A stretch of 64,000 bases of DNA from Chloroflexota bacterium (GTDB lineage Bacteria > Chloroflexota > UBA6077 > JACCZL01), in the NCBI GenBank assembly GCA_020850535.1, contig JADZEM010000068.1:1-64000 (forward strand), in the 5' to 3' direction. The notes below the pieces were generated by a model. It worked only from the letters and a program-made list of their open reading frames with translations. It did no database searches and was not told where the DNA came from. Below, piece by piece: positions 12,287 through 51,453 of this stretch. Positions within the stretch are counted from its first letter, which is position 1. The number at the start of each line of letters is the position of its first letter. The translations under genes were made by a program, and so were the position numbers.

Positions 12287-12340
12287 ATGAAACGCGACCG
12301 ACCTGAGTGGAGGCTGAGACCCGGCTGAGAGTTTCCTGAG
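12287..12340 (-). promoter_or_regulatory. CTCAG box A: four 11-bp direct repeats plus -10 (selenoprotein operon)
   Basis: On the minus strand four perfect CTCAG pentamers lie at exactly 11-bp pitch (plus-strand CTGAG at 12303, 12314, 12325, 12336). Ten nt later comes TTTCAT as the -10. It points to the selenoprotein and PCYCGC genes. Confidence 0.8.
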
Positions 12341-12457
12341 GACCAGCGCGTCAATTGACGAAGCGATAGAGACCGAGGTAGTAGGGCTGTACCCTCTCGG
12401 GTTCCGGAGCCTCGACCAACGGCGGTGCGGTTCGCTACCGACCGCAGGCCGTCGCCG

Positions 12458-12511
12458 CTCAGCGAACCCTCAGGTCGCCCACAGGACGCTCACAGCCTGG
12501 TATCGGACACT
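12458..12511 (+). promoter_or_regulatory. CTCAG box B (histidine kinase gene)
   Basis: CTCAG, CTCAG, CACAG, CACAG start at 12458, 12469, 12480 and 12491, and GACACT follows after 10 nt. The box diverges from box A and drives the kinase gene at 12551. Confidence 0.75.
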
Positions 12512-12550
12512 ATCCGTCAGCCTTTGGAGCGGTCGGGGCTGGGGACTCAG

Positions 12551-14596
12551 ATGGCCGAGGACAGACGGGCGACATATCCAGACGTTGCGCCATCCCGGTG
12601 GAACGGCGCGCGTCACGAGCCGACCAGTCCGCCGACGAGTCCGGCGATGCGCGCGCGTACGATGCTTCAAGTCACGCGCCGCGCGCTCGCGGCGGCCCGC
12701 TTCGATGCGACGGTTCACCGCTGGGCAGTAGGGCTGTTCCTCTGCATGACCGGAGCATTGCTGCTCATCGCCCCGCACCAGATGCGTGGGCCGGTGTACG
12801 AATCCTCCTCGGCCTGGCTCCTTCCGCTTGGCGTCGCGCTCTTCGGGATCGGCGGCGCGCTGATCGGCGTGTCCGTGCTCATGCCGCCACGCCAGTTGGT
12901 CGTGACAGCTCACCTCCTCGCGGGCAGTGGGATCCTGCTACTGACGTACAACGCTGCCGGCGCACAGGCCTGGAGCGAGGCCGCGGTGTACGTCACGTTC
13001 GCGGTCACCACGCTCCTCGCGCCGCTGATCGAACGGCGGTCGGGACCGGTCCGTCACGCGCCGGACCTCTTCGCGCTGGCGCTCGGCGCGTCGGCGACGT
13101 TCGGCGGGCTGCTGATGCTGCTTGCTGCGAACCAGTTTGGCGCGCCAACGTACGATCTCGTGCGATCCCACCTCGGACTGTTCGGCGTGCTTCTCGTGAT
13201 GAGCGGGGCTGCGCTGGTGGCCGTCCACGCCCGGCCAACCACCCCTCTGCGCCTCGTGCGAGCGGCCCACCTGGCGGTTGTGCCCGCGTTTCTCGGCGTC
13301 GCCGTGTCTGTGCTGGCCGCGCCGGTACACTGGACGGACGTCGGGTACTGGTTGGGCTTCGGGGCGCTGACGGTGGCGCTGCCGTGGGTGGGCCCGCAGC
13401 TTCGTGCGATCGACCCGCAGGCACTTCGCATGCAGCTGTCAGTGCTCGTTGCGTTGCTCGTGTCCTTCCCCTTGATCGTCGCGATGGCGGTCGACGGGGC
13501 GTTACACGCAGAGCGAGACGCCGCGGCCCGTGACGCGACCTACGGCTTTGTGCTGCTCGCGGTCGGGGCCGCGGTCGCGGCGAGTATCTGGATGGGGAAC
13601 CGGTTCGCCCAGCCCCTGCGTGACCTCGCGGAAGCCGTGCGAGTCATCGCGGAGGACGAGCACGCGTCGGTCGCATCGCCTCACGGCCCAGCGACCGAGC
13701 TCGCTCGCCTCGCACGTGACTTCGACGACATGCGCGCGCGGTTCGGTGAGCGCACGGCATTGTTGGCGGGACTGTCGCTCACGAATGCGCGGCTCCACCG
13801 GGAAGCCCACCAGGCGCTGCTGGCTCGGGATCGGTTCCTGAGCATCGCGGCCCACGAGCTGAACACCCCGGTGACCAGCATGCTGGGCTTTACCCAGCTC
13901 GCCCTGCGGCAGGTCCGGCACAACGAGATCGACGCCAGCCGACTGGACGCCGCCCTCACCAGGGTCGAGCGGCAGGCCGTCAAGCTCACGCGTATGATCG
14001 CGCAGCTCCTCGATCTCTCGCGACTGGAGACCGGCGAGCTTCAACTCGAACGTCATCGCATCGATGTCGCGGCACTCGTTCGGCGTGCGGTTGAGGACAT
14101 CCAGCTCGCGGGTGTTCGGTGTCCGATCGTCGTGTCCGCGCCTTCGCGGCTCGAGGCCTGGGTGGACCCCATCAGAGTAGAGCAGGTCGTAACGAACCTC
14201 GTCAGCAATGCCGTCAAGTTCAGTCCGGCCGAATCCGCGGTCCACGTCGAGCTCGCCGCTCACGGCAACACGATGCTTCGATTGGCCGTGCGCGACCATG
14301 GTCCGGGGATCCCGGCCGAGCACGGCGAGAGCATCTTCCGGGCGTTCCACCAGGTGCAGCCAACCGACGTCCGGTCGGGTCTGGGCCTCGGGCTGTTCGT
14401 GAGCAGCGAGATCGTTCGCCATCATGGAGGGACGCTCGCGGTCGAGCATCCGGCGGACGGTGGCGCGCAGTTCACGCTCCTGCTTCCATCGTGCGCCCAC
14501 AGTGATGCCCCCGACCCTTCGGCATGGTCGATCTCGGCCACTGGTGACGCACCGGCTGCCCGTACCTCTGCCGGCGGCGAGGCTCCGACTTCCTGA
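12551..14596 (+). CDS. Membrane sensor histidine kinase
   Basis: The 681-residue protein has a hydrophobic sensor region of several membrane helices (about 55-350) and a HAMP-like linker (RFAQPLRDLAEAVRVIAED). A HisKA domain with AAHELNTPVTSML (phospho-acceptor His435) and a HATPase domain (LVSNAVKFSP, RDHGPGIP, GLGLGLFVS) follow. The short C-terminal tail is low complexity. The start at 12551 is chosen because the promoter -10 is at 12506-12511; an earlier frame start would lie upstream of transcription. No response regulator gene is adjacent, so it may signal to the OmpR-type regulator near 39.6 kb (inference). Confidence 0.85.
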   Translation: MAEDRRATYPDVAPSRWNGARHEPTSPPTSPAMRARTMLQVTRRALAAARFDATVHRWAVGLFLCMTGALLLIAPHQMRGPVYESSSAWLLPLGVALFGIGGALIGVSVLMPPRQLVVTAHLLAGSGILLLTYNAAGAQAWSEAAVYVTFAVTTLLAPLIERRSGPVRHAPDLFALALGASATFGGLLMLLAANQFGAPTYDLVRSHLGLFGVLLVMSGAALVAVHARPTTPLRLVRAAHLAVVPAFLGVAVSVLAAPVHWTDVGYWLGFGALTVALPWVGPQLRAIDPQALRMQLSVLVALLVSFPLIVAMAVDGALHAERDAAARDATYGFVLLAVGAAVAASIWMGNRFAQPLRDLAEAVRVIAEDEHASVASPHGPATELARLARDFDDMRARFGERTALLAGLSLTNARLHREAHQALLARDRFLSIAAHELNTPVTSMLGFTQLALRQVRHNEIDASRLDAALTRVERQAVKLTRMIAQLLDLSRLETGELQLERHRIDVAALVRRAVEDIQLAGVRCPIVVSAPSRLEAWVDPIRVEQVVTNLVSNAVKFSPAESAVHVELAAHGNTMLRLAVRDHGPGIPAEHGESIFRAFHQVQPTDVRSGLGLGLFVSSEIVRHHGGTLAVEHPADGGAQFTLLLPSCAHSDAPDPSAWSISATGDAPAARTSAGGEAPTS

Positions 14597-14682
14597 CCGG
14601 CTCCGCCAGCAGGAGGACTCCGCCGCACACGGTGACTGGCCGCGCCGGCGTCCCCGGCGGCGCTACCCATCAGCCGTAAACG

Positions 14683-14736
14683 CTCAGGAAGCCCTCAGCC
14701 TGTCGTCAGCACCGCCTCAGCCAGGTCGTGTTTCCT
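14683..14736 (+). promoter_or_regulatory. CTCAG box C (L,D-transpeptidase operon)
   Basis: CTCAG, CTCAG, GTCAG, CTCAG start at 14683, 14694, 14705 and 14716, with TTTCCT ten nt later. It precedes the L,D-transpeptidase, TlpA-SurA and rhodanese genes. Confidence 0.75.
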
Positions 14737-14922
14737 TCACGGACACGGACTCCGTGGCGGCGGAACGCGTCCCGTGTACGGACGCCCCCCGCCGGGTGGT
14801 GTCCCAGATGCTCGGCGCCCCTCGCGAAGCAAGAATCCGCGCACGGCGGCTCCGTTGTTTCCCGTACAAGGTGGACGCGGGTGCCCCACGCCGATCGACG
14901 CGGTGGCGCCAACGGAGGTTGC

Positions 14923-17551: not shown

Positions 17552-18664
17552 TCACCGCGCGTCGGCGACGGCCAGCGCCGCCAGCGGGGCGTCGCTGTTG
17601 GACCAGGCGCGCAGGAGCTGCGCCGCCGTGATCCGGCCCTCCCCCCGCCCCGACCACGGCACCGGGTCGCTAAACAGGAAGTCGTCCCCGTCCACCCCGG
17701 TGAGGACGAGGTAATGGTCGTAGGTGACCGCCGCCCACTCGCGTCCTGGCATCAACCGGTACCGCAGCTGCGGGATGACCGGGTGCCCCGCCCGGAGATG
17801 GGTCCGGACCTCGTCGAGCGTCCAGCGACGGTAGCGCCGATTCTCCAGTAGCCCCTGACCCTCCAGGCCGTACGACTCCACGACGCCTTCGAGCGCCTCC
17901 AGCAGGAAGCCGGTGTCCGGCCCGGACGTCCCCTGGAAGCGGTGGGCTTGCTCGCGCAGGCGCGCGGTCGGCACCGTGATGCCGTAAGCTTGCAGGATCA
18001 TCCCGATGCTCGCCGGGCCACAGTTCGCGCCGGCGGCGGCGCTCCCGTCAAGCTGGGTGCGATAGGGGACGCTCAGGGCGACCTGCGCCGCGCCGAAGGC
18101 GAACGGACCGTCCCACGGACGCAGCAGACCCTGCGTCGGTCCGGCCTGGACGGCGCTGGCGTCCACCCAGGCCAGGATGGTGTCGAGCCCGCCCGGCAGG
18201 CCGAGACGGACGGGTATCCGGCCGTCCCGGATCGGCCCGGCGGCCTCGAGTACGGAGAGGCGTGGCACCTGAGCGAGCACGGTCGAGTCCGGATGCCCGT
18301 CGTCGCGCAGGGCGACGTCGCGCACGCTGACGAGCGGCCCGGCCAGAGTCGTCGCGCCGTCGTCCACTACCTCCGGTGGTAGCTCCGGCGCGTCGGCAAC
18401 CTGCTCCGACCCGGGCTCCGCCACGTCGGCCGGTAGGTCGGCCGGCGTGATCCGCGTGACGACGGGGCGCCTGACCGGAGCCCACTCCACGGGAGGCGCA
18501 GCCGGGACACCCGGCCAGACGATCGCGGAGCGCAGCGCCGGCGGCGTGTCCGGGGTCGGCGCCGGGATCGCGGTCCAGGCGGTCACGGCCAGGGTCACGA
18601 GGACGAGCGCATGGCGGGCGAGGTGACCGGTCGTCGGCTGCGTGCGGGTACGGATGGCCTGCAT
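17552..18664 (-). CDS. Exported C39-like peptidase
   Basis: The 370-residue protein has an N-terminal signal or anchor (15-38) and a Pro-rich stretch. An SH3-like region (105-190) and a C39-type papain-fold domain (200-370) follow, with GANCGPASIGMIL holding the catalytic Cys and YDHYLVLTGV the His. Such proteins cleave peptides outside the cell or at the membrane. It converges with the rhodanese gene (52 bp apart) and diverges from the sortase gene; no CTCAG box points toward it. Confidence 0.8.
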   Translation of the reverse strand: MQAIRTRTQPTTGHLARHALVLVTLAVTAWTAIPAPTPDTPPALRSAIVWPGVPAAPPVEWAPVRRPVVTRITPADLPADVAEPGSEQVADAPELPPEVVDDGATTLAGPLVSVRDVALRDDGHPDSTVLAQVPRLSVLEAAGPIRDGRIPVRLGLPGGLDTILAWVDASAVQAGPTQGLLRPWDGPFAFGAAQVALSVPYRTQLDGSAAAGANCGPASIGMILQAYGITVPTARLREQAHRFQGTSGPDTGFLLEALEGVVESYGLEGQGLLENRRYRRWTLDEVRTHLRAGHPVIPQLRYRLMPGREWAAVTYDHYLVLTGVDGDDFLFSDPVPWSGRGEGRITAAQLLRAWSNSDAPLAALAVADAR

Positions 18665-18738: not shown

Positions 18739-18792
18739 CTCAGCGAACCCTCAGCCGCGCCTCAGCACGCGTTCAGCCACCCGGCCGACTGT
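18739..18792 (+). promoter_or_regulatory. CTCAG box D (sortase gene)
   Basis: CTCAG, CTCAG, CTCAG, TTCAG start at 18739, 18750, 18761 and 18772. GACTGT follows after 10 nt as the -10. Confidence 0.75.
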
Positions 18793-19713: not shown

Positions 19714-19767
19714 TTCAGGACATCCTCAGGGGCCTCTCAGGGCCAGCACAGCATCGGCCGGTACGCT
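19714..19767 (+). promoter_or_regulatory. CTCAG box E (methyltransferase gene)
   Basis: TTCAG, CTCAG, CTCAG, CACAG start at 19714, 19725, 19736 and 19747, and TACGCT follows after 10 nt. The -10 is identical to that of box H. Confidence 0.75.
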
Positions 19768-20680: not shown

Positions 20681-20734
20681 CTCAGGCAACCCTCAGGTGC
20701 GGCTCAGCGTGGATTCAGGGCCGGTCCGTATTAC
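20681..20734 (+). promoter_or_regulatory. CTCAG box F, separated from its gene by an IS
   Basis: CTCAG, CTCAG, CTCAG, TTCAG start at 20681, 20692, 20703 and 20714, with TATTAC after 10 nt. The natural target is the gene at 21724, but an IS now lies in the leader between them. Confidence 0.8.
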
Positions 20735-20802
20735 TAGCGAAGCCTCACTCGTCCCGCCGCGCGATGGTGCCCGGCGCCTCGTCGCGGGGCCGTCTCGTCT
20801 AG

Positions 20803-21679
20803 AGCCTGTTATGGACTTACGTCAGGCCGAAGTAGGCAGTAGCGCGGGCGAGTTCGAGGCAGGCGAAGGCGACGAGATGCAGACCGGCCAGGACGGAGAG
20901 GCGGCGCTCGTAGTCTCGGACGAGGCGTCGGAAGCGGGACTTCCAGGCGAAGGATCGCTCCACGACCCAGCGCCTGGGAAGGAGGACGAAGCCACGCTTG
21001 GCCTCGGGCAGCTTGACGACCTCGAGGCGGATGCCGTGGGCCAGGGCCGCCTCGGCGGGGTCAGCGCCCGTGTAGCCCTGGTCGACGAACGCCACCTCCA
21101 CCGTCCCGGCGGTCACAGCTTGCACTTGCCGACTCAACTCGGCCACCTGGGCGCGATCCTGGTCGTTGGCCGGCGTGACGTGCAGGGCCAGCAGGTGGCC
21201 GAGGGTATCGACCGCCACATGCACCTTGCTCCCCTTCCGCCGCTTGGCCCCGTCGTAGCTGGCATGCGCCCCACTCTCGGGCGTGCTCTGGAGGGTCTGG
21301 CTGTCGTAGATCACCGCCGTCGGCTCCGGCGCACGCCCCTCCGCCAACCGGAGCAGCGCCCGCAGGTCATGGATGATCGCTTCGAAGCTGCCAGCCGCCA
21401 GCCAGCGTTGCGTCTGCTGGTACACCACCGGCCACGGCGGCAGGTCGTGCGGCATCCAGCGCCACTGCCCACCGGTCTTCACGATGTAGCGCAGTCCGTT
21501 GAACACCTCCCGCAGCGGGTACGTTCGCTGCGGCGCATCCTCCGTCATCAAGGTCAGGTACGGGGCGACAAACGCCCATTCGTCGTCGCTCACATCACTC
21601 GGGTACGACTTCCGTGCGGGAGTGACATCGCTCATGCCCCCACTTTACGGAAGCCGTGGCCCAAAGTTCATAACAGGCT
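20803..21679 (-). mobile_element. IS5-family insertion sequence, 877 bp
   Basis: The imperfect terminal repeats AGCCTGTTATGgACTT and AGCCTGTTATGaACTT bound the element. It is flanked by direct copies of CTAG (20799-20802 and 21680-21683), which fits the YTAR target of the IS5 group. It carries one intact transposase gene on the minus strand and interrupts the leader of a CTCAG-box operon. Confidence 0.85.
20817..21635 (-). CDS. IS5-family transposase
   Basis: The 272-residue protein has an N-terminal DUF4096-like DNA-binding part ([32 protein letters not shown]) and a DDE domain with YDSQT, VDQGYTG and RRWVVERSF marking the three acidic residues. It appears complete and probably active or recently active, since the terminal repeats and target duplication are intact. 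Confidence 0.9.
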
Positions 21680-21723
21680 CTAGGACGGCCCCGCGACGAG
21701 GCACACTCCCGAGAGGAGAAGAG

Positions 21724-35818: not shown

Positions 35819-36185
35819 GTCATCTCTCCTTCGCGCCACGCTGTGCGCCGGGCTCCACCATGCAACGCCGTCATGGCCCGGTCGATGGAACCCCGAACGG
35901 GGGCGGGCCGACCCCCGGTCATCTCCGCTGTCGAGCCGCGACCCTGGACGCGAGACCTCCTCCGACGCTCGAGATCGCTCCGGGATGGAGACGTGTTGCG
36001 GCCAGACGCCGCAGACGGCGTGCCGCGACGACGGGCGCCTGGCCGGGCCGCCGACAGGGGCAGTCGGAGGCAGACCCGACGGTCAGTGCCGGTTACCAGC
36101 AAGACGTCGCCCGCCCTCACGTCGACGTCGATCGTCCCACGGCCGCGGTCCGCGACGCCGCCACTTACGTATCCCCACACCAGGA
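35819..36185 (-). other. Long leader between box G and the YHS gene
   Basis: About 360 nt separate the box G -10 from the YHS start. A minus-strand frame beginning GTG at about 36180, exactly where a leaderless start would lie, encodes VWGYVSGGVADRGRG and RAGDVLLVTG before turning Arg/Ser-rich. It may be a small protein or leader; I cannot decide. Confidence 0.3.
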
Positions 36186-36239
36186 ACTCTACGCCGGCAA
36201 GCTGAGGGCTGGCTGAGGAGGGGCTGAGCGTCCGCTGAA
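36186..36239 (-). promoter_or_regulatory. CTCAG box G (YHS-nuo operon)
   Basis: On the minus strand TTCAG, CTCAG, CTCAG, CTCAG lie at 11-bp pitch (plus-strand complements at 36235, 36224, 36213, 36202). TAGAGT follows after 10 nt. It points to the YHS and nuo genes and diverges from box I. Confidence 0.8.
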
Positions 36240-36284
36240 ACACGCGCCGACGTGCCGAGCTGGCCGCCGTGCCGAGCTGTCAGC

Positions 36285-36338
36285 CTCACCGAATCTTCAG
36301 CCGCGCCTCACGTGGGCCTCAGCCCGCTCGGCGATGCT
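36285..36338 (+). promoter_or_regulatory. CTCAG box I (C2H2 zinc-finger gene)
   Basis: CTCAC, TTCAG, CTCAC, CTCAG start at 36285, 36296, 36307 and 36318, and GATGCT follows after 10 nt. It drives the small gene at 36452 through a leader of about 107 nt that holds the short palindrome GCCCGGATGTCCGGGC. Confidence 0.7.
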
Positions 36339-36750: not shown

Positions 36751-36804
36751 CTCAGCCAACCCTCAGGTGTGGCTCAGGCTGGACTCAGCCCCCGCCGGTA
36801 CGCT
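36751..36804 (+). promoter_or_regulatory. CTCAG box H (multicopper oxidase operon)
   Basis: Four perfect CTCAG pentamers start at 36751, 36762, 36773 and 36784, with TACGCT 10 nt later. An extra CTCAG at 36743 is out of phase. Confidence 0.8.
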
Positions 36805-36853: not shown

Positions 36854-37351
36854 ATGACCACTCGCACGAGCCCACGAAGCATCGCACGCTGGCTCGGACG
36901 CGCCGTCTTCGCCACGTCCGTGAGCCTCGCGCTGATCGGACCGGTCGGCCCGGCGCTAGCGGCTACCGACGGTCTCGCGGTGGTACAGCAGGCGGCCGAC
37001 GTCCAGACGGCTGATGTCCAGACCAACGTCGGCGGCGGCGTCACAGTCAAGGTCAGCCGGTTGGAGAGTGCCGAGGGGCTGGCCTTCAAGATCGTGCTCG
37101 ACACCCACTCGGTGAACCTGGACCGTATCGACCTCGGCCAGCTCGCCGTCCTCCGGACCGAGCAGGGCGAGGAGATTGCCCCGCTCGCCTGGGAGGCGCC
37201 GGCGGGCGGCCACCACCGCGAGGGGACGCTGATGTTCCCGACCACCACGGCCGACGGGTTGCCCCTGTTCGAAGCCGGCGCGGGCACGGTCGAGCTCGTG
37301 ATCCGCGACGTCGCCGGCGTTGCCGAGCGCGCCTTCCGCTGGGTGATCTGA
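36854..37351 (+). CDS. Exported protein of unknown function
   Basis: The 165-residue protein has a long signal peptide (1-36, ending ALA) and a beta-rich domain with no Cys (VTVKVSRLESAEGLAFKIVL, LVIRDVAG). It resembles the ends of the exported protein at 21724 in style (LVIRDVAG versus LVIRDAHG). It is the first gene of the operon with the multicopper oxidase, 25 bp upstream of it, so it may be a partner or chaperone. Confidence 0.65.
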   Translation: MTTRTSPRSIARWLGRAVFATSVSLALIGPVGPALAATDGLAVVQQAADVQTADVQTNVGGGVTVKVSRLESAEGLAFKIVLDTHSVNLDRIDLGQLAVLRTEQGEEIAPLAWEAPAGGHHREGTLMFPTTTADGLPLFEAGAGTVELVIRDVAGVAERAFRWVI

Positions 37352-37376
37352 CGCCGCCGTGATGGGGAGGAGAGGG

Positions 37377-38534
37377 ATGTCAGGTGTAACGACCACGCGC
37401 GCCGGTCGCTGGGCGGCGGTCGCGGCGGCCCTCGCGCTCGTCGCGGCCACCGCCTGGAGCGCCGGCCGCGCGACCGCGCCGGCCGTGACGGCCAGCGCGG
37501 CGCCCGCGCCGACCGGCTACAACATCGGGGTCGCCGGCAAGCCGGCCCCCACCGGCCAGGTGAAGGAGTACCAGCTCGTCGCCCGCGAGGCGCCCTGGGA
37601 GATCGCACCCGGGGTCACCGTACCGGCGATCACCTACAACGGTCAGGTGCCCGGCCCGACGATCCGTGTCACCGAGGGCGACACTCTCCGGGTGACGCTG
37701 AAGAACGAGCTGTCCAAAGCGACCAGCATCCATTGGCACGGCCTGCACGTGCCGAACGCGGCCGACGGCGTGCCGGGCGTCACGCAGGCGGCGATCGAGC
37801 CCGGCCAGAGCTACACCTACGAGTTCCAGGCCAGCCATGCCGGGACGTTCCTGTACCACCCGCACGTCAACTCGGTCGAGCAGATCGACCGGGGCCTCTA
37901 CGCCCCGCTGATCATCGACCCTGCCACGCCACCGGCGACGACCTTCGACAAGGACTTCACCATGATGCTGTCGGCCTGGGACACCACGGCTCTCAGCAGC
38001 GGCGGTGAGGCCGGCCATGGCATGCCCGGCATGACGATGACCTACAACTACTTCACGATCAACGGCAAGGCGTTCCCGTCGAACGAGGCCTGGACGGTCC
38101 GCGAGAACGACCTCGTGCGCGTCCGGATCATCAACATCTCGAACGTCGTCCACCCGATGCACCTGCACGGGGGCGACTTCACCGTCGTAGCGAAGGATGG
38201 CGAGCCGATTCGCCCCGAGCTGCAGCAGACGATGAATACGGTTTCCGTGAACGCGGGCGAGACGTTCGACGCCGTCTTCCGGGCCGACAACCCCGGGACG
38301 TGGCTGTTCCACTGCCACGAGCTGCACCACACCGAGAACGACGGCGTCGAACCGGGTGGGCTGATCCAGGTGATCCAGTACGCGGGCGTCCAATCACCGC
38401 CGGCGTCGGGCGCCCCGGCCGCCCCAGCAGCGCCGGCTGCCCCAGCAGCGCCGGCTGCCCCGGCTGCCCCGGCCGCCACGCCGACCGCGCTCCCACCCGG
38501 ACACTCCCCGAACATGCCCGGCATGCGGCACTAG
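37377..38534 (+). CDS. Multicopper oxidase / nitrite reductase-like protein
   Basis: The 385-residue protein has a signal anchor (12-35) and cupredoxin domains with the copper-ligand motifs SIHWHGLH, FLYHPHVN, HPMHLHGGD and WLFHCHELHH. HCHELHHTENDG supplies type 1 and trinuclear ligands. A central HGMPGMTM and a C-terminal AAP-repeat linker ending in NMPGMRH add Met/His copper sites. GGAGGAGAGGG precedes the ATG at 37377. Laccase-like copper oxidases detoxify Cu(I); related two-domain forms reduce nitrite. The HWHG/HCH pattern favours oxidase. Confidence 0.85.
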   Translation: MSGVTTTRAGRWAAVAAALALVAATAWSAGRATAPAVTASAAPAPTGYNIGVAGKPAPTGQVKEYQLVAREAPWEIAPGVTVPAITYNGQVPGPTIRVTEGDTLRVTLKNELSKATSIHWHGLHVPNAADGVPGVTQAAIEPGQSYTYEFQASHAGTFLYHPHVNSVEQIDRGLYAPLIIDPATPPATTFDKDFTMMLSAWDTTALSSGGEAGHGMPGMTMTYNYFTINGKAFPSNEAWTVRENDLVRVRIINISNVVHPMHLHGGDFTVVAKDGEPIRPELQQTMNTVSVNAGETFDAVFRADNPGTWLFHCHELHHTENDGVEPGGLIQVIQYAGVQSPPASGAPAAPAAPAAPAAPAAPAAPAATPTALPPGHSPNMPGMRH

Positions 38535-39348: not shown

Positions 39349-39560
39349 AGGCTGGTGGACGAACGCCGGCGGAGGCGGTGCCGAACACGGCGGGGGCCGG
39401 GTAACGGGGCCCGGTCCCCTAGCCCGCTACCGAGCGGGTCGCCGGCGGCCGAGAGGGCCGAGACGGGGAGGCCATAATGCAGGAGGCACGGGGACTCGGC
39501 CAGTTGCTGCTCCGTGCGCGCGCTGACAGCTCGGAGGAAGGAGGGTCGAAGGCCGTGGCA

Positions 39561-40235
39561 ATGCAGCGGATCCTGGTCGTCGACGACGACCTGTCCGTGA
39601 CGAGCGTCCTCAAGCGGGGCCTCTCATACGAGGGGTACGTCGTCGAGACGGCCGCGACCGGCGTCGAAGGCCTCGAGCTGGCGCGCCAGCAGGCACCGGA
39701 CCTGGTGATCCTCGACATCATGATGCCGGGGCTCGACGGCCTGGAGGTGCTGCGGCGGCTGCGTGGGGCCGACCGGGACCTGCCGGTCCTGCTGCTCACC
39801 GCCCGCGACGCGCCGACTGACCAGGTGCTCGGGCTGGAGCTGGGCGCCGACGACTACGTCGTCAAGCCGTTCACCTTCGAGGTGCTGGTGGCCCGCGTCA
39901 AGGCGCTCCTGCGGCGCAAAGAGAGCGACCGCCCGGCCGTCTTGCGCTTCGCCGACCTCGCCCTGGACACCGGCACCCGGATGGCGCACCGGGGCGAGCG
40001 GAGCATCACGCTCACCAGCACCGAGTACGATCTGCTCCAGCAGTTCCTGGAGCACCCCCGCCGCGTCTTGACACGGGACTTCCTGATGGAGCGGGTCTGG
40101 GGCTACGACTTCGGCGGCAACACCAACGTCCTCGAGGTCTACGTCAAGCAGCTCCGGCAGAAGCTCGAAGCCGACGGCCAGCCCCGCCTGATCCACACCC
40201 TGCGCGGCTCTGGCTACGTCCTGCGCGAGCCGTAG
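39561..40235 (+). CDS. OmpR-family response regulator
   Basis: The 224-residue protein has a receiver domain (phospho-acceptor Asp52 in VILDIMMPG, acidic VDDD at 7-10, Lys in DDYVVKPF) and a winged-helix DNA-binding domain (EYDLLQQFLEHPRRVLTRDF, VYVKQLRQKLE). OmpR/PhoB-type regulators bind direct repeats spaced about 11 bp, exactly the arrangement of the CTCAG boxes in this window. It is the only such regulator here, so it is the best candidate. The ATG at 39561 has AAGG eight nt upstream; a GTG at 39555 is possible. The kinase gene follows 15 bp later. Confidence 0.85.
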   Translation: MQRILVVDDDLSVTSVLKRGLSYEGYVVETAATGVEGLELARQQAPDLVILDIMMPGLDGLEVLRRLRGADRDLPVLLLTARDAPTDQVLGLELGADDYVVKPFTFEVLVARVKALLRRKESDRPAVLRFADLALDTGTRMAHRGERSITLTSTEYDLLQQFLEHPRRVLTRDFLMERVWGYDFGGNTNVLEVYVKQLRQKLEADGQPRLIHTLRGSGYVLREP

Positions 40236-40250: not shown

Positions 40251-41672
40251 GTGTCGCTGCGGCTGCGGCTGGCCCTCTGGTACGGCGCGCTGACCGGGCT
40301 GGCGATCGTCGTCGTCAGCCTGGTCTCCTACGCCATGCACAGCCGCGCCCACTACGACGAGATGGACGCGATGCTCGCGAGCGCCGCGGAGCACATCGCC
40401 GAGGAGTACCTCGGCACCGCGACCCCGGCCGACCGGGCGGCCAGCATGGCGACGTCGATCGTGCCGGATCTGGTGATGCGGCTCTACCGGACGGACGGCG
40501 GGCTCGTCGCGGAGTCGCCGAACGCGGCCAGCGTGCCGGCCACGGATCCCCGGACATCCCTGGCGGGTCCGAGTCGGCCAGCCTTCGACGCGATCGCCGG
40601 GCTCGCGCCGGCCTTTGCCTGGCCCCCGGCCGGGCACGGCCGTTTCGACGTCACCGCCGACCGGCAGGGGAATCGCTGGCGGCTGCACGTCCTGCCGCTC
40701 GCGAGCCTCGGCCAGATCCTCGTCGTGGCGGCGCCCCTGGATCGGATCGACGCGTCGGTTGCGCGGTTCCGGGGGCTCCTGCTCGGGTTCGCCGTGGTCG
40801 GGACGCTCCTCACGTTCATGGTGAGCTGGCTGCTCGCGCGTGGGGCGCTACATCCCCTCGCCGTCGTGACGGCGACGGCGAGCGCCATCGCCCGCTCGCG
40901 CGGGTTCGGACGCCGGGTCCCCGTGGGGCCGCGCGACGACGAGCTGGGGCAGCTGACGACGACGTTCAACGAGATGCTGGACAGCCTGGAGCAGGCCTAC
41001 CGGGCCGAGCAGCGGTTCGTGGGCGATGCCTCGCACGAGCTGCGGGCGCCGCTAACGGCCATCCAGGCCAACCTCGAGCTCTTGGAGCGCCGCCCCGACA
41101 TGCCGGTCGAAGCGCGCCAGGAGGCGGTGGCCGAGGCGAGCCGCGAGGCCCACCGACTGACCCAGCTTGTGGCCGACCTGCTGGCGCTCGCCCGCGCCGA
41201 CGCCGGCGCAGCCATCCCGCGCCACCCGGTCGAGCTCGACCGCGTCCTGCTCGACACGCTCGGCTCGGCGCGGCACCTGGCCCGGGGGCGCCGCCTGGAC
41301 ATCGCCGCCCTCGATCCGACCGTTGTCGAGGGTAACGAGGACCGCCTTCGGCAGCTCCTGCTGATCCTGCTCGACAACGCCATCAAGTACAGCCCGCCAG
41401 ACGGGACGGTAACCCTCAGCTTGCGGCGCAACGGCCGGACGGCGGACCTCACCGTCGCGGACCGGGGCGTCGGCATCCCGCCCGACGAGCTGCCGCGCGT
41501 CTTCGACCGCTTCTACCGGGCGGACCCAGCCCGTGCCCGCGATCCCGGCGGCACCGGTCTGGGCCTGTCGATCGCCCACTGGATCGTCGAGCAGCACGGC
41601 GGCCAGATCGGCATCGAGAGCGCCGTGGGCCGCGGCACGACGGTCTCCGTCACCCTGCCGACGAACGGCTGA
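40251..41672 (+). CDS. Sensor histidine kinase, partner of the OmpR-type regulator
   Basis: The 473-residue protein has two membrane helices (8-28 and about 178-202) flanking an extracytoplasmic sensor of about 150 residues. A HAMP linker, HisKA with GDASHELRAPLTAIQ (His262) and HATPase (LLDNAIKYSPPDG, ADRGVGIPPDEL, GGTGLGLSIAHWIVEQHGG) follow. This is the CusS/QseC-like layout for metal or envelope sensing. It probably phosphorylates the regulator encoded just upstream. Confidence 0.88.
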   Translation: MSLRLRLALWYGALTGLAIVVVSLVSYAMHSRAHYDEMDAMLASAAEHIAEEYLGTATPADRAASMATSIVPDLVMRLYRTDGGLVAESPNAASVPATDPRTSLAGPSRPAFDAIAGLAPAFAWPPAGHGRFDVTADRQGNRWRLHVLPLASLGQILVVAAPLDRIDASVARFRGLLLGFAVVGTLLTFMVSWLLARGALHPLAVVTATASAIARSRGFGRRVPVGPRDDELGQLTTTFNEMLDSLEQAYRAEQRFVGDASHELRAPLTAIQANLELLERRPDMPVEARQEAVAEASREAHRLTQLVADLLALARADAGAAIPRHPVELDRVLLDTLGSARHLARGRRLDIAALDPTVVEGNEDRLRQLLLILLDNAIKYSPPDGTVTLSLRRNGRTADLTVADRGVGIPPDELPRVFDRFYRADPARARDPGGTGLGLSIAHWIVEQHGGQIGIESAVGRGTTVSVTLPTNG

Positions 41673-41745: not shown

Positions 41746-42111
41746 ATGTTTATGCTTGATGTGTCGTTGGGGAGCGTGTCGGTCGCCATGCGGCAGGATC
41801 CTCAGTTCAGTCTGAAGGCGAAGCTGTTCCGCGGCCTTGCCGATCCATCGCGCCTGGCGATCCTCGAGATCCTGCGTGCGGGCGAGCGGACGGTGTCGGA
41901 CGTCGTCGAGGCAACGGGGCTGTCCCAGCCGAACGTGTCGAGCCACCTGGCGTGCCTGCGGGATTGCGGGCTTGTCTTGAGTCGGCAGGATGGTCGCTTC
42001 GTGTACTACCGACTCGCCGATGCACGCGTCGAGGATCTGCTGCGCCAGGCCGAGGGCATCCTGGTCAGTGTTGCCGACCGCGTCTACGCCTGTACCCGCT
42101 ACGAGTCTTGA
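41746..42111 (+). CDS. ArsR/SmtB-family metal-responsive repressor
   Basis: The 121-residue protein has the ArsR winged helix ([44 protein letters not shown]) and Cys residues in LACLRDCGL that match CadC/CmtR-type metal sites, plus a C-terminal Cys. A TATCCT -10-like hexamer lies eight nt before the ATG, so the mRNA may be leaderless; ATGs at 41752 and 41788 are alternatives. It lies 10 bp before the P-type ATPase gene, which it probably represses until metal binds. Confidence 0.85.
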
Positions 42112-42121
42112 GGGCACCAGC

Positions 42122-44275
42122 ATGACGACGTCTGCGAGCCGAACAAGCGTCGACCTGCCGATCGTCGGCATGGACTGCGCCGACGAAGCGGCGCACATCG
42201 AGGCCGCGGTCGGCAAGGTACCCGGCGTGCTCGAGGTACGGGCGCTCGTCGCGGCTCAGCGAGCGCGTGTGACGTATGACCCGGTCCGCGTGACGCCCGC
42301 CCAGATCGTCGCCGCGATCGAGCAGACGGGGTGCAGCGTCCGCGACGAGCACGAGCCGGCCGCGGCTGAGACGCAGGCGGAGGGTCGTCGGGACATCGGC
42401 CAGATCATCGGCTGGGGCGCCCTGGGCATGGTCGCCGTCGTGGTACTGGTCGCCGCGCTCGGCGAGCGGCTCGGTCTGCTCGACGCTGTGCTCGAGCGCC
42501 TGCCGTGGTGGATTCCGGCCCTGGCGATTATCCTGGGTGGCTGGGGCGTGTTCGGCGGCGTGCTCCGGGCCGCCCGGCGCGCCGAGGTGACGAGCCACAC
42601 CCTGATGACGACCGGCGTCATCGCGTCGGCCGCGATCGGCCAGTGGACGACGGCCGCGCTGATCGTGTTCTTCATGCGCTTCGCCGACTGGATCGAGGAG
42701 CTGACGACCGAGCGGAGCCGCCAGGCACTCAAGCAGCTCGTCGCGCTCCAGCCGCCGTCGGCGCGCGTCCAGCGCGACGGCCGTGAGGTCGACGTGCCGG
42801 TCGCCGAGGTCGCGGTTGGAGATATCGTGGTCGTCCGCCCGGGTGAGCGCATCCCCGTCGACGGCGAGGTGATGGAGGGGCAGGCGCCGGTCGACCAGGC
42901 GCCGATCACTGGCGAGAGCGTGCCGGTCGAGAAGGGCCTGGGGGACGCCGTGTTCGCCGCGACGGTGACGCAGGCCGGCTTCTTGAAGGTTCGCGCCACG
43001 AGGGTGGGCGCCGACACGACGTTCGGCCGGATCGTGCGGCTGGTCGAGGAGGCTGAGTCGCAGAAGGCGCCGGTCCAGCGCTTCGCCGACCGCTTCTCGT
43101 CCTACTACCTGCCGGCCGTGCTGCTCATTGCCGCCATGACCTACCTGGCCACCGGGCAGGTCGTGAACGCCGTCGCGGTGCTGGTCGTCGCCTGCGCCTG
43201 CGCGATCACGCTGGCAACTCCCGTCGTCGTCCTGGCGAGCGTCGGCAACGCGGCCCGGCGGGGCCTGCTCGTCAAGGGCGGGATCGCGCTGGAGCAGCTC
43301 GCCAGGGTCGACACCGTCGTCATGGACAAGACCGGCACGCTCACCCGTGGCGAGCCGCGCCTGACCGACGTCGTGCCGCTCAACGGCATCGGCGAGGCCG
43401 ATCTGCTAGCGACCGTTGCGGCCGTGGAGGCACGGAGTGAGCACCCGCTGGCGAAGGCGCTCGTGCGGGCGGCCGACGAGCGGGGCCTGGCGCGACCGGA
43501 GCCCGACGCGTTCACGCCCCTGCCCGGGCGCGGGCTGGTCGGCGCGGTGGCCGGGCGCGAGTGGGCGGTGGGTAACCGCCGGCTGCTCGCCGAGCGCGGC
43601 GTCGCCCCGTCGCCCGAGCACGAGCGGCGGGCCCAGGCCTTCGAGCGCGACGGGAAGACCGTGTTCTTCGTCGCGGACGGCGCCGGCGTGACCGGGCTGG
43701 TGGCGGTGGCCGACGTAGTGCGCCCCGAGGTGCGGGCGGCGCTCCTCGACCTGAAGCGGCTGGGCGTGCGGCGCCTGCTCCTGCTCACGGGCGACAACGA
43801 GCGGGTGGCCGCGGCCGTCGCGCAGGAGCTCGGGCTCGAATACCGCGCCGAGCTACTGCCGGACGAGAAGATCGCGGCTGTCAAGGCTCTTCAGGCGGAA
43901 GGCGCGGTGGTCATGATGGTGGGCGACGGCGTGAACGACGCGCCGGCGCTGGCCCAGGCCGACGTCGGCGTGGCGATGGGCGCGGCCGGGACCGACGTGG
44001 CGATCGAGGCGGCAGATGTGGCGCTGATGCGCGACGATTGGGCGATGGTCCCGGAGGCGATTCGCCTCGGCCGGCGCTCGGCGCGCGTGATCCGCCAAAA
44101 CCTTGGCTTCACGGCCGCGTACAACGTCATCGGCATTGCTCTCGCGTTCGTCGGCCTGTTGCCGCCGGTGTGGGCAGCGGCCGCCCAGAGCCTGCCCGAC
44201 GTCGCGATCATGGCCAACTCCGCGCGGCTACTCCGGGTCCCCCGCGCAGGACCACCCCGCTCCGACACCGAGTGA
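42122..44275 (+). CDS. P1B-type heavy-metal ATPase with CAC instead of CPC
   Basis: The 717-residue protein has an N-terminal heavy-metal-associated domain ([16 protein letters not shown], one Cys), membrane helices, the actuator TGES, the phosphorylation motif DKTGTLT and hinge [11 protein letters not shown]. The transmembrane metal-site motif reads Cys358-Ala359-Cys360 ([13 protein letters not shown]) where the family almost always has CPC. By family it exports Cd, Zn, Pb or Cu ions. The ArsR gene upstream favours a Cd/Zn/Pb-type substrate. All catalytic motifs seem intact, so it should still be an active pump. Confidence 0.88.
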
Positions 44276-45377: not shown

Positions 45378-45431
45378 CACAGCGAGTCATCAGGCCAGCC
45401 TCAGCATGGTTTCAGGTCGAGGGTCGACGAT
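45378..45431 (+). promoter_or_regulatory. CTCAG box J (cupredoxin-ccdA operon)
   Basis: CACAG, ATCAG, CTCAG, TTCAG start at 45378, 45389, 45400 and 45411. GACGAT follows after 10 nt. It is one of the less perfect boxes. Confidence 0.65.
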
Positions 45432-45502
45432 ACCGTCGACACCGTCGGACGCATGCCCGGAGCGGGGCTCCGCGCGTGATCCGACCATCCGGAGGACGCG
45501 TG

Positions 45503-45961
45503 ATGTCACGCGCGAAGCACCGAGACAGGCAATCCTGCCATGCCGACAGGCACCGGCGCGGCCGACTCCCCGTTCGCATCGCGTTATTCGCCCTCGTCGC
45601 CATCGGGACGGTTCTCGTGGCCGGTGCACTGCTGTTCCCGGCGCGAGGCTCAGCCGGACCGGCCGATAAGACGGTCCAGATCACGATGGGCGGGTTCAGC
45701 TCACCAGTGATCGGCGCGACGGCCGGCCAGCCGCTCCGGGTCAAGATCGTCAACCCGGATAGCTCCTATCACACCGATGGCGGCGGCTGGCACCAGCTCG
45801 CCATCCCCGAGCTGCGGGTTGACGCACGCGTGGCGCCGCGCAGCGAGTCGGTTGTGGAGATCCCCGCCGCGGCCCCCGGCGAGTACGCCTTCTATTGCGA
45901 TGTCTGCTGCGGCGGGAAGGAGAACCCGTCGATGCAGGGCGTCCTCATCGTCACGGCCTGA
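45503..45961 (+). CDS. Membrane-anchored cupredoxin with a CuA-like loop
   Basis: The 152-residue protein has an anchor (28-48) and a cupredoxin fold with His in GGWHQLAIPE and the loop YCDVCCGGKENPSM. The loop resembles the CuA C-x3-C-x3-H-x2-M pattern, but the His position is Glu/Asn and an extra Cys is present. It may bind copper in an altered site or chaperone it. GGAGG precedes the ATG at 45503. The CcdA gene starts four bases later, so a thiol-reduction partnership is likely. Confidence 0.8.
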   Translation: MSRAKHRDRQSCHADRHRRGRLPVRIALFALVAIGTVLVAGALLFPARGSAGPADKTVQITMGGFSSPVIGATAGQPLRVKIVNPDSSYHTDGGGWHQLAIPELRVDARVAPRSESVVEIPAAAPGEYAFYCDVCCGGKENPSMQGVLIVTA

Positions 45962-46679: not shown

Positions 46680-46742
46680 CGCCCGCGGCACGGGCAGATG
46701 GCAGCCGCCGTCCTCACCGCCTTATCGGTGCCGCCGCGGTTC

Positions 46743-46796
46743 TCAGCGAACGCTCAGGTGCGCCTCAGCCAGGCCACAGGCTGCCCGGATACCGTC
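46743..46796 (+). promoter_or_regulatory. CTCAG box K (beta-propeller gene)
   Basis: CTCAG, CTCAG, CTCAG, CACAG start at 46743, 46754, 46765 and 46776. TACCGT follows after 10 nt. Confidence 0.75.
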
Positions 46797-48009: not shown

Positions 48010-48030
48010 GTCCGTCCCGGGGCCGCTGCG

Positions 48031-48616: not shown

Positions 48617-48670
48617 CTCACCAAGACCACAGGCCTGCCTCAGCGCAGCCTCAGCAACCGGCCGGACACT
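48617..48670 (+). promoter_or_regulatory. CTCAG box L (operon of small membrane proteins)
   Basis: CTCAC, CACAG, CTCAG, CTCAG start at 48617, 48628, 48639 and 48650, with GACACT after 10 nt. The -10 is the same as in box B. Confidence 0.75.
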
Positions 48671-48702
48671 CAGAGCAGAGAGCGTGCGGAGGAGGCCTGG
48701 TG

Positions 48703-48996
48703 GTGTCGGAGATCGTCCAGTTCGTGCAGGCCAACGCGAGCTGGCTGATGCTCGCGGTTCTCTTCGGGGCGATGCTCCTGATGCATCGCGCGGCTGGGTG
48801 CGGCATGAGCCACGACCGGCATCCCAGCCCGTCGACGGGGACGTCCCCGTCAGACCAGCGCTCCGGTACGCGCCAGGATGGCGAGCCGATGAGCCAGGGC
48901 GCGGGAGCGCCCCGGTCGAAGGCGTGCCACGGACCGGACGCGGTCGCGCACCGGCCACGTGTCGGAGCCAGCGCAGAGGAAGGAGGGCGAACATGA
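48703..48996 (+). CDS. Small single-span membrane protein with Cys/His tail
   Basis: The 97-residue protein has one membrane helix (SWLMLAVLFGAMLLM) followed by HRAAGCGMSHDRH and a disordered tail. The Cys/Met/His cluster next to the membrane resembles small copper-resistance proteins. GGAGG precedes the GTG start. Its stop overlaps the next gene by four bases. Confidence 0.55.
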   Translation: MSEIVQFVQANASWLMLAVLFGAMLLMHRAAGCGMSHDRHPSPSTGTSPSDQRSGTRQDGEPMSQGAGAPRSKACHGPDAVAHRPRVGASAEEGGRT

Positions 48997-49658
48997 TCGG
49001 CAGGCGTCTCCGCAACGGAGGAAGTGTCCTTGCCGCGGTGGTCGCGGTGACTGGTCTCGGCCTGGTGCTGGTCCGTACCGCGAACGACGCACCGGCATCG
49101 CCCGTCACCGTCTCGATGGTCGACGGCGCACGCGCGATGGATCGCGTGGCGACCGTCATGCAGACACACGGTCGGGCGATGCTGGCCGAGGGGAGCGAGC
49201 GCGCCGACGCCGCGATGACCGCGGATGGGCAGCGTTGGCTCGACGATGGAGCGGGACTCCTGACGGGCGGACGCTGGATGAGCATGGACCCGCTTTCGCC
49301 GGCCAATCTGGCGACGCCCCCCGCCGAGCTGGCCCGCCAGGGAACGTGGGGAGAGCTCACGCGGACGGCCCAGGCGATGCGCCACGTCCCCGAGCGAGCG
49401 TCGGCGACCGACCTCCGGGCACTCCGCCAGAACGGCCAGGCCATGGTCGGCGAAGGACAGGCGATGCGCTGGCACGCCCACGTGATGAGCGAGGCGGTCA
49501 GCGACATGGCCGTCCGCCACGCCGGCACAGCGCGGAACCTGCCCGACCTGCTCGCCGCGACGGAGGAGCTCCGCCGCGCCGGTCACGGCCTCGAAGCGAC
49601 CGGCGGTCGGATGGTGGCCTACGCCGACCGCATGTCCGCCTCGCTCGGCGCTCGGTGA
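48993..49658 (+). CDS. Exported helical protein of unknown function
   Basis: The 221-residue protein has an N-terminal anchor (10-28) and a long helical region rich in Met, Ala and Arg (GARAMDRVATVMQTHGRAML, GQAMRWHAHVMSEAVSDMAV). It lacks Cys. The regular Met and His spacing could bind copper weakly; this is speculative. It is coupled to the previous gene by ATGA and precedes a DUF5676 gene. Confidence 0.55.
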   Translation: MIGRRLRNGGSVLAAVVAVTGLGLVLVRTANDAPASPVTVSMVDGARAMDRVATVMQTHGRAMLAEGSERADAAMTADGQRWLDDGAGLLTGGRWMSMDPLSPANLATPPAELARQGTWGELTRTAQAMRHVPERASATDLRALRQNGQAMVGEGQAMRWHAHVMSEAVSDMAVRHAGTARNLPDLLAATEELRRAGHGLEATGGRMVAYADRMSASLGAR

Positions 49659-49716: not shown

Positions 49717-50022
49717 ATGATGAGACGCCTTGACATCCTGCTCGTCAGCTCCACCACGACAGCGTTCGCGGTGATCCTCTACCTCGTCTGCGTCGCGTTC
49801 CGGCTGGTCTTTCCGGGCTGGGCGATGTACGAGCTGGATCGCTGGGTCGCCATCTTCCCGGGCTTCAGCTGGTCCGTCCTCGGCGTGACGATCGGCCTGA
49901 TCGAGATCGCCGCCGCTGCCGCGCTCGGATCTGCCCTCTACGCCTGGCTCTACAACGCCCTGGCGCGCCGGCTCATCTCCCGAGGTGCGGGGGCTGAGCC
50001 GCCGGTCCGAGCGGTCGCGTGA
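49717..50022 (+). CDS. DUF5676 family membrane protein
   Basis: The 101-residue protein has two membrane helices with a short loop (VFPGWAMYELDRWVAIFPGF) typical of DUF5676. Members often lie beside DUF2933 and copper-handling genes, as here; their function is unknown. AAAGGAG precedes the ATG. It probably belongs to the box L operon. Confidence 0.75.
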   Translation: MMRRLDILLVSSTTTAFAVILYLVCVAFRLVFPGWAMYELDRWVAIFPGFSWSVLGVTIGLIEIAAAAALGSALYAWLYNALARRLISRGAGAEPPVRAVA

Positions 50023-50078
50023 CCGCCGACGGTCCCCGCCCGGCGTGGTGAGCGAGGGCCGGGCGTTCGCGCTCGGCC

Positions 50079-50132
50079 CTCAGCCAGCCCTCAGCCTGCG
50101 CTTAGGCCGCCCTCAGGTGGCTCGCCTACACT
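50079..50132 (+). promoter_or_regulatory. CTCAG box M (DUF305 gene)
   Basis: CTCAG, CTCAG, CTTAG, CTCAG start at 50079, 50090, 50101 and 50112. TACACT follows after 10 nt, close to a standard -10. Confidence 0.8.
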
Positions 50133-50196
50133 CCGGGAGAGGCCCCCCGCCTCCCATCACCGGGGCGCGACGCTCCGGATCGTAGAGGTAGCCCCC

Positions 50197-50928: not shown

Positions 50929-50952
50929 CCGACGTCGGCAGCGCTGCCATCA

Positions 50953-50980
50953 GGGGCCGGTCTAGACGGACCGGCCCCTT
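50953..50980 (+). terminator. Terminator after the DUF305 gene
   Basis: A 10-bp perfect stem (GGGGCCGGTC with GACCGGCCCC) and 6-nt loop are followed by TT, about 25 nt behind the stop codon. Confidence 0.65.
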
Positions 50981-51005
50981 CGTCATGCCTCCCTTTTTGG
51001 AGACG

Positions 51006-51059
51006 CTCAGGGAATACTCAGGCGCGATTCAGCCCTCGCTCAGCGGCGTTCGCGATAGT
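51006..51059 (+). promoter_or_regulatory. CTCAG box N (HMA gene)
   Basis: CTCAG, CTCAG, TTCAG, CTCAG start at 51006, 51017, 51028 and 51039. GATAGT follows after 10 nt. Confidence 0.75.
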
Positions 51060-51147
51060 AGGCGCAGGCCGAGCGCCGATCGTGGACAGCTCCGCGTGAC
51101 CGGATCCAGGATCGGCTGCCCGCCGAGTCCTTCTGTGGAGCCTCACC

Positions 51148-51384
51148 ATGGCCACCTCGTGCCAACGCGTGACTCTTGCGATCTACGGTCTGTCCTGCGG
51201 TGGCGGTGGTGCGCTCGGCGTCGAGCGGGCGCTCGAGGGCACGCCGGGCGTCCTGCGCGCGTACGTCAATCCGCTGACGGAGATGGCCTACGTGGAGCTT
51301 GATCCCGGCTCCACCACGCACGACCGCCTCGTCGCCGCGGTGCGCCACGCCGGCTTCGACGCCAGTGCGCCAGAACCGCGCTGA
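51148..51384 (+). CDS. Heavy-metal-associated (HMA) domain protein with altered metal motif
   Basis: The 78-residue protein has the HMA beta-alpha-beta fold (VTLAIYGLSCGGGGALGVERAL, read as fold; VLRAYVNPLTEMAYVEL; LVAAVRHAGFDA). The usual CxxC copper motif is reduced to a single Cys (SCGGGG). A second Cys is only at position 5. It could bind copper as a dimer or with altered affinity. It follows box N with a leader of about 80 nt. Confidence 0.75.
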   Translation: MATSCQRVTLAIYGLSCGGGGALGVERALEGTPGVLRAYVNPLTEMAYVELDPGSTTHDRLVAAVRHAGFDASAPEPR

Positions 51385-51399
51385 GTCCGCGCCCGATCG

Positions 51400-51453
51400 C
51401 TCACGTGTTCATCAAGCCTCACTCAGCCCCGTCCCGGGTGGCGATCCGATACT
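51400..51453 (+). promoter_or_regulatory. Degenerate CTCAG box O (DUF2933 gene)
   Basis: CTCAC, ATCAA, CTCAG and CCCGG occupy 51400, 51411, 51422 and 51433, and GATACT lies 10 nt after the last. The geometry is kept but only two pentamers are good. Confidence 0.5.

Follow-up and report, generated by a model that had tools for sequence, protein, structure and literature searches.

Fifteen sites with four CTCAG boxes at 11-bp pitch as candidate promoters of one PhoP/PhoB-like regulon in a Chloroflexota metal and redox gene cluster

What reads a promoter-like signal that recurs fifteen times within 39 kb? The question arises in a 64,000-nt stretch of DNA, hereafter the window, which comprises positions 1 to 64,000 of the forward strand of contig JADZEM010000068.1 from a Chloroflexota bacterium (assembly GCA_020850535.1) and has a G+C content of 71.7%. 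A first-pass annotation of its sequence had noted fifteen sites of one 54-bp plan, in which four CTCAG-like pentamers spaced 11 bp apart are followed by a -10-like hexamer, and the fifteen sites are there. Our answer, to which we give a probability of roughly 0.85, is that they are predicted activator-dependent promoters of one regulon under a PhoP/PhoB-like response regulator, with four tandem subsites replacing the -35 element.

Geometry of the CTCAG arrays

CTCAG repeats at 11-bp pitch are far more frequent than expected by chance. The word CTCAGN6CTCAG, with at most one mismatch, matches the window 39 times, compared to 6.25 ± 2.52 times (largest 13) in 100 dinucleotide shuffles. A strict rule, which demands four boxes at 11-bp pitch with at least 4 of 5 matches in every box and a sum of at least 17 of 20, finds 14 arrays, all within 12287-51059; the same rule finds none in the window at pitches of 8, 9, 10, 12 and 13, and three scrambled words at pitch 11 yield 0, 1 and 0 arrays. 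The fifteenth site, at 51400, is weak (its boxes match 4, 3, 5 and 3 of 5), but a leave-one-out matrix scores it at 18.7 against a top background score of -0.4 in 63 kb of DNA on both strands; the other 14 score 30.7 to 50.7 against background scores of at most 4.7. The claimed layout thus stands, with 14 arrays recovered by the strict rule and the weak one by the leave-one-out matrix, while the accompanying count of 13 sites with at least two perfect CTCAG boxes comes to 12 of 15 on recounting. The consensus box is cCTCAG(C/G), the base after the box is never A or T (60 of 60 boxes), and a CACAG variant occurs in 6 of the 60. The arrays are as follows, each with its -10-like word.

12287-12340, minus strand: array 1, four perfect boxes, TTTCAT, before a predicted selenoprotein gene (start 12227) and a PCYCGC gene
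12458-12511, plus strand: array 2, GACACT, diverging from array 1 and followed by the gene for a large orphan histidine kinase
14683-14736, plus strand: array 3, TTTCCT, before an L,D-transpeptidase (YkuD) gene
18739-18792, plus strand: array 4, GACTGT, before a sortase gene
19714-19767, plus strand: array 5, TACGCT, before an ICMT/PEMT-like methyltransferase gene
20681-20734, plus strand: array 6, TATTAC, ahead of P21724 and a Fer4_5 iron-sulfur protein gene, with a transposase gene between
36186-36239, minus strand: array 7, TAGAGT, before a YHS gene (35818) and a nuo-type operon
36285-36338, plus strand: array 8, GATGCT, before a zf-met gene, divergent from array 7
36751-36804, plus strand: array 9, four perfect boxes, TACGCT, before P36854, a multicopper oxidase gene and LGT, after which come the genes of the regulator and its kinase
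45378-45431, plus strand: array 10, GACGAT, before cupredoxin and DsbD/SfLAP-like genes, in the same order as behind an array of genome G006
46742-46795, plus strand: array 11, TACCGT, before a beta-propeller gene, as in G022 (C452)
48617-48670, plus strand: array 12, GACACT, before a small possible gene at 48700 (no family match) and 48993-49658
50079-50132, plus strand: array 13, TACACT, before a DUF305 gene
51006-51059, plus strand: array 14, GATAGT, before an HMA gene (51148), as in G022 and G140
51400-51453, plus strand: array 15, the weak one, with a single perfect box, GATACT, before a DUF2933 gene

The position of the -10-like hexamer is equally rigid. The motif (T/G)ANNNT lies at +48 from box 1, that is 10 nt past box 4, in 12 of the 15 sites, and at any other offset from 38 to 65 in at most one; the remaining three words are TTTCAT, TTTCCT and TATTAC, so that the (T/G)AnnnT or similar element described earlier is exact in twelve cases and a variant in three. 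Because those sites might have been chosen partly on their -10, we repeated the count on arrays picked without it. Among arrays of relatives selected on three perfect boxes only, 10 of 14 (a set that includes one simple tandem repeat and one array in doubtful register) have the motif at +48, with at most two at other offsets. Similarly, among 21 four-box arrays near regulator orthologues, a set that partly overlaps the 14, (T/G)ANNNT is found at +48 in 18 and ANNNT in all 21, while other offsets reach at most 3 of 21 and the ANNNT background is 3.5%; for the 12 of these from later-fetched loci the counts are 10 and 12.

No conserved TTGACA-like word is found at the -35 position (columns 25-30, box 3 and spacer, in the 15 sites). 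As far as sequence can tell, the layout is therefore that of a class II activator, with a fixed distance from operator to -10 and no conserved -35. Every array is directed at a gene on the same strand. In 12 of the 15, the distance from the assumed transcription start (box 1 plus 60 nt) to a start codon that has a ribosome-site word is 23 to 180 nt. The exceptions are array 7 (about 360 nt from the YHS gene), array 2 (uncertain kinase start) and array 6 (transposase in between). The same regulator might instead bind the arrays and act mainly as a repressor that covers the core promoter: the boxes span about -60 to -23 relative to the inferred start, and a bound protein could block polymerase. 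However, the exact spacing to the -10 and the missing -35 word fit activation through contact with polymerase, whereas a repressor needs no exact spacing, and we consider repression unlikely.

Two further features of the arrays deserve mention. Columns 7 and 8, in the first spacer, are A in 12 and 10 of the 15 window sites, a preference seen in no other spacer and weaker in the 21 foreign arrays (10 and 9); these bases are perhaps contacted by the C-terminal domain of the polymerase alpha subunit or by the wing of the regulator. In addition, arrays 1 and 2 (12287-12511) and arrays 7 and 8 (36186-36338) form two back-to-back, divergent pairs, and since their first boxes are 117 and 45 bp apart, all eight boxes of a pair could be filled together.

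A PhoP-like regulator and its linkage to the arrays

The candidate for the protein that binds the arrays is encoded within the cluster, next to a kinase.

39477-40235, plus strand: OmpR/PhoB-type response regulator, predicted array binder, recognition helix NVLEVYVKQLRQK; the true start may be 39561
40251-41672, plus strand: partner histidine kinase (HAMP, HisKA, HATPase_c), which adjoins the regulator in relatives too

The regulator carries an N-terminal receiver (Response_reg, PF00072) and a C-terminal winged helix (Trans_reg_C, PF00486), the domain pair of the OmpR/PhoB type. Based on sequence, the proposal of a PhoB/OmpR-type regulator whose 11-bp repeats replace the -35 is thus supported by its domains, by the exact pitch and by the lack of a conserved -35. 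The best NCBIfam match of the regulator is to the heavy-metal response regulator model TIGR01387 (229 bits, under the curated cut-off of 279.2) and that of the kinase to the heavy-metal sensor kinase model TIGR01386 (226 bits, under 292.55); the regulator also stays below the cut-offs for MtrA (NF040689, 214.8 bits against 300) and PhoB (TIGR02154, 209.3 against 296.2). By eye, the sensor region of ten aligned kinases has no conserved Cys and no clear His or Met pattern, and so does not point to any particular signal. A scan of viral contigs for the regulator confirmed no relative.

We surveyed 400 genomes of the phylum, scoring six candidates per genome and accepting a close regulator at E ≤ 1e-88. 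A three-box match is present in 47 of the 400 genomes, at 88 places compared to 17 for the reversed word, and a close regulator in 32. In ten of these 32 (G000, G006, G022, G023, G026, G140, G320, G357, G145 and G073) a three-box array lies within 10 kb of the regulator on the same contig. In G320, G357, G145 and G073 the distance is about 90 to 205 bp, and in the first two of these the array points away from the regulator gene.

We then applied the strict four-box rule to 29 of the 31 regulator loci outside the home genome (all except G135 and G303; 4.5 to 20 kb each, 377 kb in total). It found 21 arrays in 13 loci, where nine of the 29 loci had been fetched earlier and arrays in some of those nine were known before the scan; the five controls on the same loci, pitches of 9, 10, 12 and 13 and the reversed word, gave none. 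G073 and G145, which the four-box rule misses, have, in front of the regulator gene and with unchanged spacing, three boxes, a TTCAT and a CATACT, which fits autoregulation. The sequence evidence strongly supports the prediction that the product of 39477-40235 is the array regulator. For the claim that one regulator controls the whole region, the clustering of arrays at orthologues (10 of 32 genomes; 21 arrays in 29 loci against none) favors a single regulator, but "whole region" is too wide, as three gene sets lack an array: the ArsR and P-type ATPase genes (41746-44275), a C39-peptidase gene (17552-18664) and the regulator gene itself have none directly before them.

The arrays also appear to be confined to this one cluster. 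We searched the home genome (7.65-Mb assembly, 227 contigs, 96% complete) with a sequence-only profile built from all 15 sites, scoring the best 150 of 7090 first-look candidates. All 15 hits at E ≤ 3.7e-5 fall in the 39-kb cluster, and the next, a partial one, has E = 0.078. The 15 are the training sites, whose own E-values are no test; the test is the empty remainder of the genome. The word CTCAGN6CTCAG occurs at 30 places genome-wide, 20 of them in the cluster (including overlaps within arrays), compared to 11 for the reversed word. The observation that the sites occur only at 12-52 kb thus extends to the assembly searched, and a genome scan of the kind that the first-pass annotation had proposed does not match random intergenic sites equally often but returns the 15 alone. 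On this sequence evidence the regulon looks private to the cluster.

A different regulator could in principle bind the arrays, for instance the partner of the orphan kinase at 12.5-14.6 kb, which sits behind an array of its own, or a paralogous response regulator. The home genome encodes about 30 full-length OmpR-type paralogues, and the closest of them, on C60, also has a Gln in its helix (NLVPVYVGQLRGK), although the helix starts differently. Against this alternative, the arrays track orthologues of 39477-40235, the 11 closest paralogues have other helices, and no genome-profile site lies near any paralogous regulator of the home genome; the 3.7-kb paralogue loci are themselves too short to serve as a control, because the 3.7-kb locus of the regulator also has no array. 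We regard a different regulator as improbable, more so than repression by the same one.

A structural precedent relates the predicted regulator to the operator word. By sequence, its best match among solved structures is Mycobacterium tuberculosis PhoP, with PrrA close behind. In the PhoP-DNA structure, Asn212, Val213, Glu215, Ser216, Tyr217 and Tyr220 read TCACAGC, a water held jointly by Asn212 and Ser216 touches the third base, and the operator consists of 7-bp subsites with a strict 4-bp spacer, two of which were crystallised (PMC4832192). The arrays likewise are in-phase direct repeats of about 7 bp with a 4-bp spacer, as expected of a PhoP-type operator, although the subsite word is cCTCAGs and not TCACAGC. 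Aligned to PhoP, the regulator keeps Asn212, Val213, Glu215 and Tyr217, while Ser216 is replaced by Val and Tyr220 by Gln; the third base of the operator is A in the PhoP word and T here. Valine at 216 may favor the thymine methyl group.

The Gln also tracks the arrays. A four-box array is nearby in 10 of 12 orthologues with Gln and in 3 of 17 others (16 Tyr, 1 His; Fisher P = 7e-4, in classes set after the data were seen and uncorrected for kinship). Gln is not sufficient, as the paralogue on C60 has it, and it is not required, as G018 and G021 have arrays and a Tyr in the closest regulator seen. Because the closest paralogue has Gln and some Tyr-type genomes have arrays, we see about an even chance that a Chloroflexota clade of PhoP-like regulators, marked by Gln at the PhoP Tyr220 position, uses a rigid promoter form (four CTCAG boxes, no -35, a -10 at exactly 10 nt) that makes its regulons readable from sequence across the phylum, and that in this genome the form has reached 15 promoters of one 39-kb cluster and no others, which would make the cluster an island with its own transcription code.

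Genes behind the arrays

The strongest evidence that the arrays work is, in our view, the conservation of their putative targets. We examined the downstream genes of 29 sites in relatives (28 of the 32 profile hits outside the home genome and one further array). In 16, a homologue of a window-cluster gene lies downstream on the same strand within 2.5 kb, and in 12 of those 16 its start is no more than 600 nt from box 1. At these 12 sites the homologue met first is P36854 in G006, G022, G026, G040 and G056, cupredoxin in G006, LGT in G026 and G056, HMA in G022 and G040, the propeller in G022 and P21724 in G026. Further loci have P36854 (G328, G080) or HMA (G140) behind an array. In the window, LGT and the iron-sulfur gene come further down in operons headed by arrays, where operon extents are inferred from gene spacing. 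Gene order varies between genomes with arrays before orthologues, hence the operator goes with the genes. Three of the genes behind arrays are given here.

36854-37351, plus strand: P36854, predicted to be an exported protein of beta-sandwich fold in which THSV and GGHHR are conserved, the commonest array target in relatives
37359-38534, plus strand: multicopper oxidase
45476-45961, plus strand: cupredoxin

This conservation upstream of orthologous genes argues for selection and so also bears on a third reading, in which the arrays arose by copying of a mobile or duplicated promoter cassette or are an artefact of tandem repeats. In favor of that reading, most matches in an exact four-box scan of named genomes look like simple tandem repeats, and 96 of the 118 loci listed fail a distinct-spacer rule. 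In the window, however, the spacers differ (mean identity 0.39), and the flanks of the 15 sites, with mean identities of 0.30 and 0.29 against an expected 0.30, already contradict it; we judge it very improbable.

Several observations weigh against activator-dependent promoters under the regulator at 39477-40235. A regulator above threshold is missing from 34 of the 47 three-box genomes, several of whose matches are simple tandem repeats, and 16 of the 29 regulator loci have no strict array, including two loci with Gln (G040 and G287), of which G040 has profile hits on both sides. No cluster homologue lies downstream of 13 of the 29 sites in relatives, and a laxer list of arrays has the -10 in 15 of 20 and lacks it in 5. 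The regulator gene has no array of its own, and read-through from array 9 would have to cross 128 to 212 nt. Finally, regulator and kinase score under the heavy-metal model cut-offs, so that copper can be named only as a possible signal.

The genes behind the arrays encode mostly exported or membrane proteins of metal and redox function: multicopper oxidase, cupredoxin, HMA, DUF305, YHS, thioredoxin-like, rhodanese and CcdA/DsbD-like proteins and the nuo-type operon. Envelope enzymes, namely L,D-transpeptidase, sortase and LGT, are also behind arrays. Since the targets serve metal handling, redox chemistry and respiration outside the cytoplasm, the likeliest signal would be a metal or redox stress on the far side of the membrane; from gene content, copper or redox stress is the likeliest cue that we infer. 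A structure model of P36854 (three-sequence alignment, mean pLDDT 67) gave no Foldseek match at E ≤ 0.001. Its best VIA-align match is Helicobacter pylori CrdA, a copper resistance protein (Z 9.8, root-mean-square deviation 2.9, 96 residues), and many unrelated Ig-like sandwiches reach Z 8 to 9; the modelled likeness to CrdA is suggestive only.

One correction to the first description concerns array 6, at 20681: a transposase gene on the opposite strand (20817-21635) separates it from the iron-sulfur-type operon. This gene is of the IS4/5 type (DUF4096 and DDE) and lies on the minus strand, in the interval 20735-21723 between array 6 and its likely operon, whose control its insertion may have broken or changed. 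In G026 a homologue of P21724, the first gene of that operon, begins 186 nt from the first box of an array and is followed by the iron-sulfur gene, an order from which it appears that array 6 once controlled these genes, until the transposase gene came in between.

Other genes of the window have features of their own. The first gene behind array 1 (11748-12227, minus strand) has an in-frame TGA (Glu-Gly-Cys-TGA-Pro) read through to a second stop and encodes what we take to be a DUF1573-like selenoprotein; the home genome has a tRNA-Sec match of 65.2 bits against a cut-off of 47, a cut-off that 5 of 14 control genomes also exceed. The large orphan histidine kinase (12425-14596), itself behind an array, has no adjacent response regulator and is a possible feedback or cross-signalling partner. 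The leader from array 7 to the YHS gene (35819-36180, minus strand) is unusually long at about 360 nt, and Rfam at its gathering score matches no family there or elsewhere in the window. The P-type ATPase (42122-44275), whose gene lies downstream of the partner kinase, adjoins the ArsR gene and has no array, passes general heavy-metal, cadmium-type and copper-type models alike, so that no metal specificity is singled out; its membrane metal site reads CAC, where the usual motif of such ATPases is CPC. On the minus strand, 52174-55493 contains genes that resemble helicases and DUF6094 methyltransferases and that match defence models weakly (DpdE 1.1e-12, mad2 1.4e-13).

Proposed mechanism and comparison with known systems

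In the mechanism that we propose, each site offers four direct 7-bp subsites (cCTCAGs) with 4-bp spacers. The phosphorylated regulator would fill them in the head-to-tail manner of M. tuberculosis PhoP, whose operator has two subsites, with subsites 3 and 4 standing in for the -35 element, and the file of regulators would recruit a sigma-70-type RNA polymerase to the (T/G)ANNNT -10 by class II activation of the PhoB type. The kinase at 40251-41672 would set the phosphorylation of the regulator, and the array 9 operon probably reads through into the regulator gene, which would provide positive feedback.

Parts of this scheme have precedents. At class II promoters of Escherichia coli PhoB the operator stands in place of the -35, with its end some 10 bp upstream of the -10; word, repeat number and regulon differ from those of the arrays. 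The CusR/CopR/CzcR family (TIGR01387), with the sensor kinases of TIGR01386, provides the best NCBIfam matches of the pair, both under the curated cut-offs, and its operators differ from CTCAG arrays.

M. tuberculosis PhoP shares the OmpR/PhoB-type fold and the 7-bp subsites with 4-bp spacer, and its CACAG is one base from CTCAG; the arrays differ in having four subsites (two were crystallised there), the CTCAG word, Val and Gln for Ser216 and Tyr220, and other targets (PMC4832192). The PHO boxes of Streptomyces PhoP are likewise direct repeat units of 11 nt, with four core units at pitH2 and four at glpQ1, and at glpQ1 and glpQ2 the units overlap the -35, as here; the word and the signal are different, and the number and quality of units vary (two at pstS, five at glpQ2), in contrast to the uniform four-box plan (PMC7866108). 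For Corynebacterium glutamicum MprA, an htrA site that contains TTCAG and two neighbouring binding regions upstream of cg0793 are reported, but its consensus is TKTTAAGAAM and is called loose (PMC12113857). Streptomyces CutR was considered as a source of a CTCAG-like word and dropped, as the CutR word is TAWATAAA (PMC12802291).

Among the matches listed, titles and abstract openings on CTCAG regulators, copper two-component systems and MprA boxes describe no such array. Within that scope we found no account of CTCAG as such a word, of a four-box plan kept uniform with its -10 at a fixed distance, of a link to this regulator clade across the phylum, or of 15 such promoters confined to one cluster. 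To our knowledge, gene regulation in Chloroflexota has been little studied. The regulon is experimentally simple and readable from sequence, and one switch would tie together about a dozen poorly known extracytoplasmic genes, among them P36854, DUF305, DUF2933, the propeller, the sortase, the predicted selenoprotein and the nuo-type operon. Sets of four 11-nt units, and units that overlap the -35, are already known from Streptomyces PhoP and a strict 11-bp pitch from M. tuberculosis PhoP; the arrays offer a natural test case for how PhoP-type winged-helix regulators pick their bases, and for why a promoter would need four subsites and not two.

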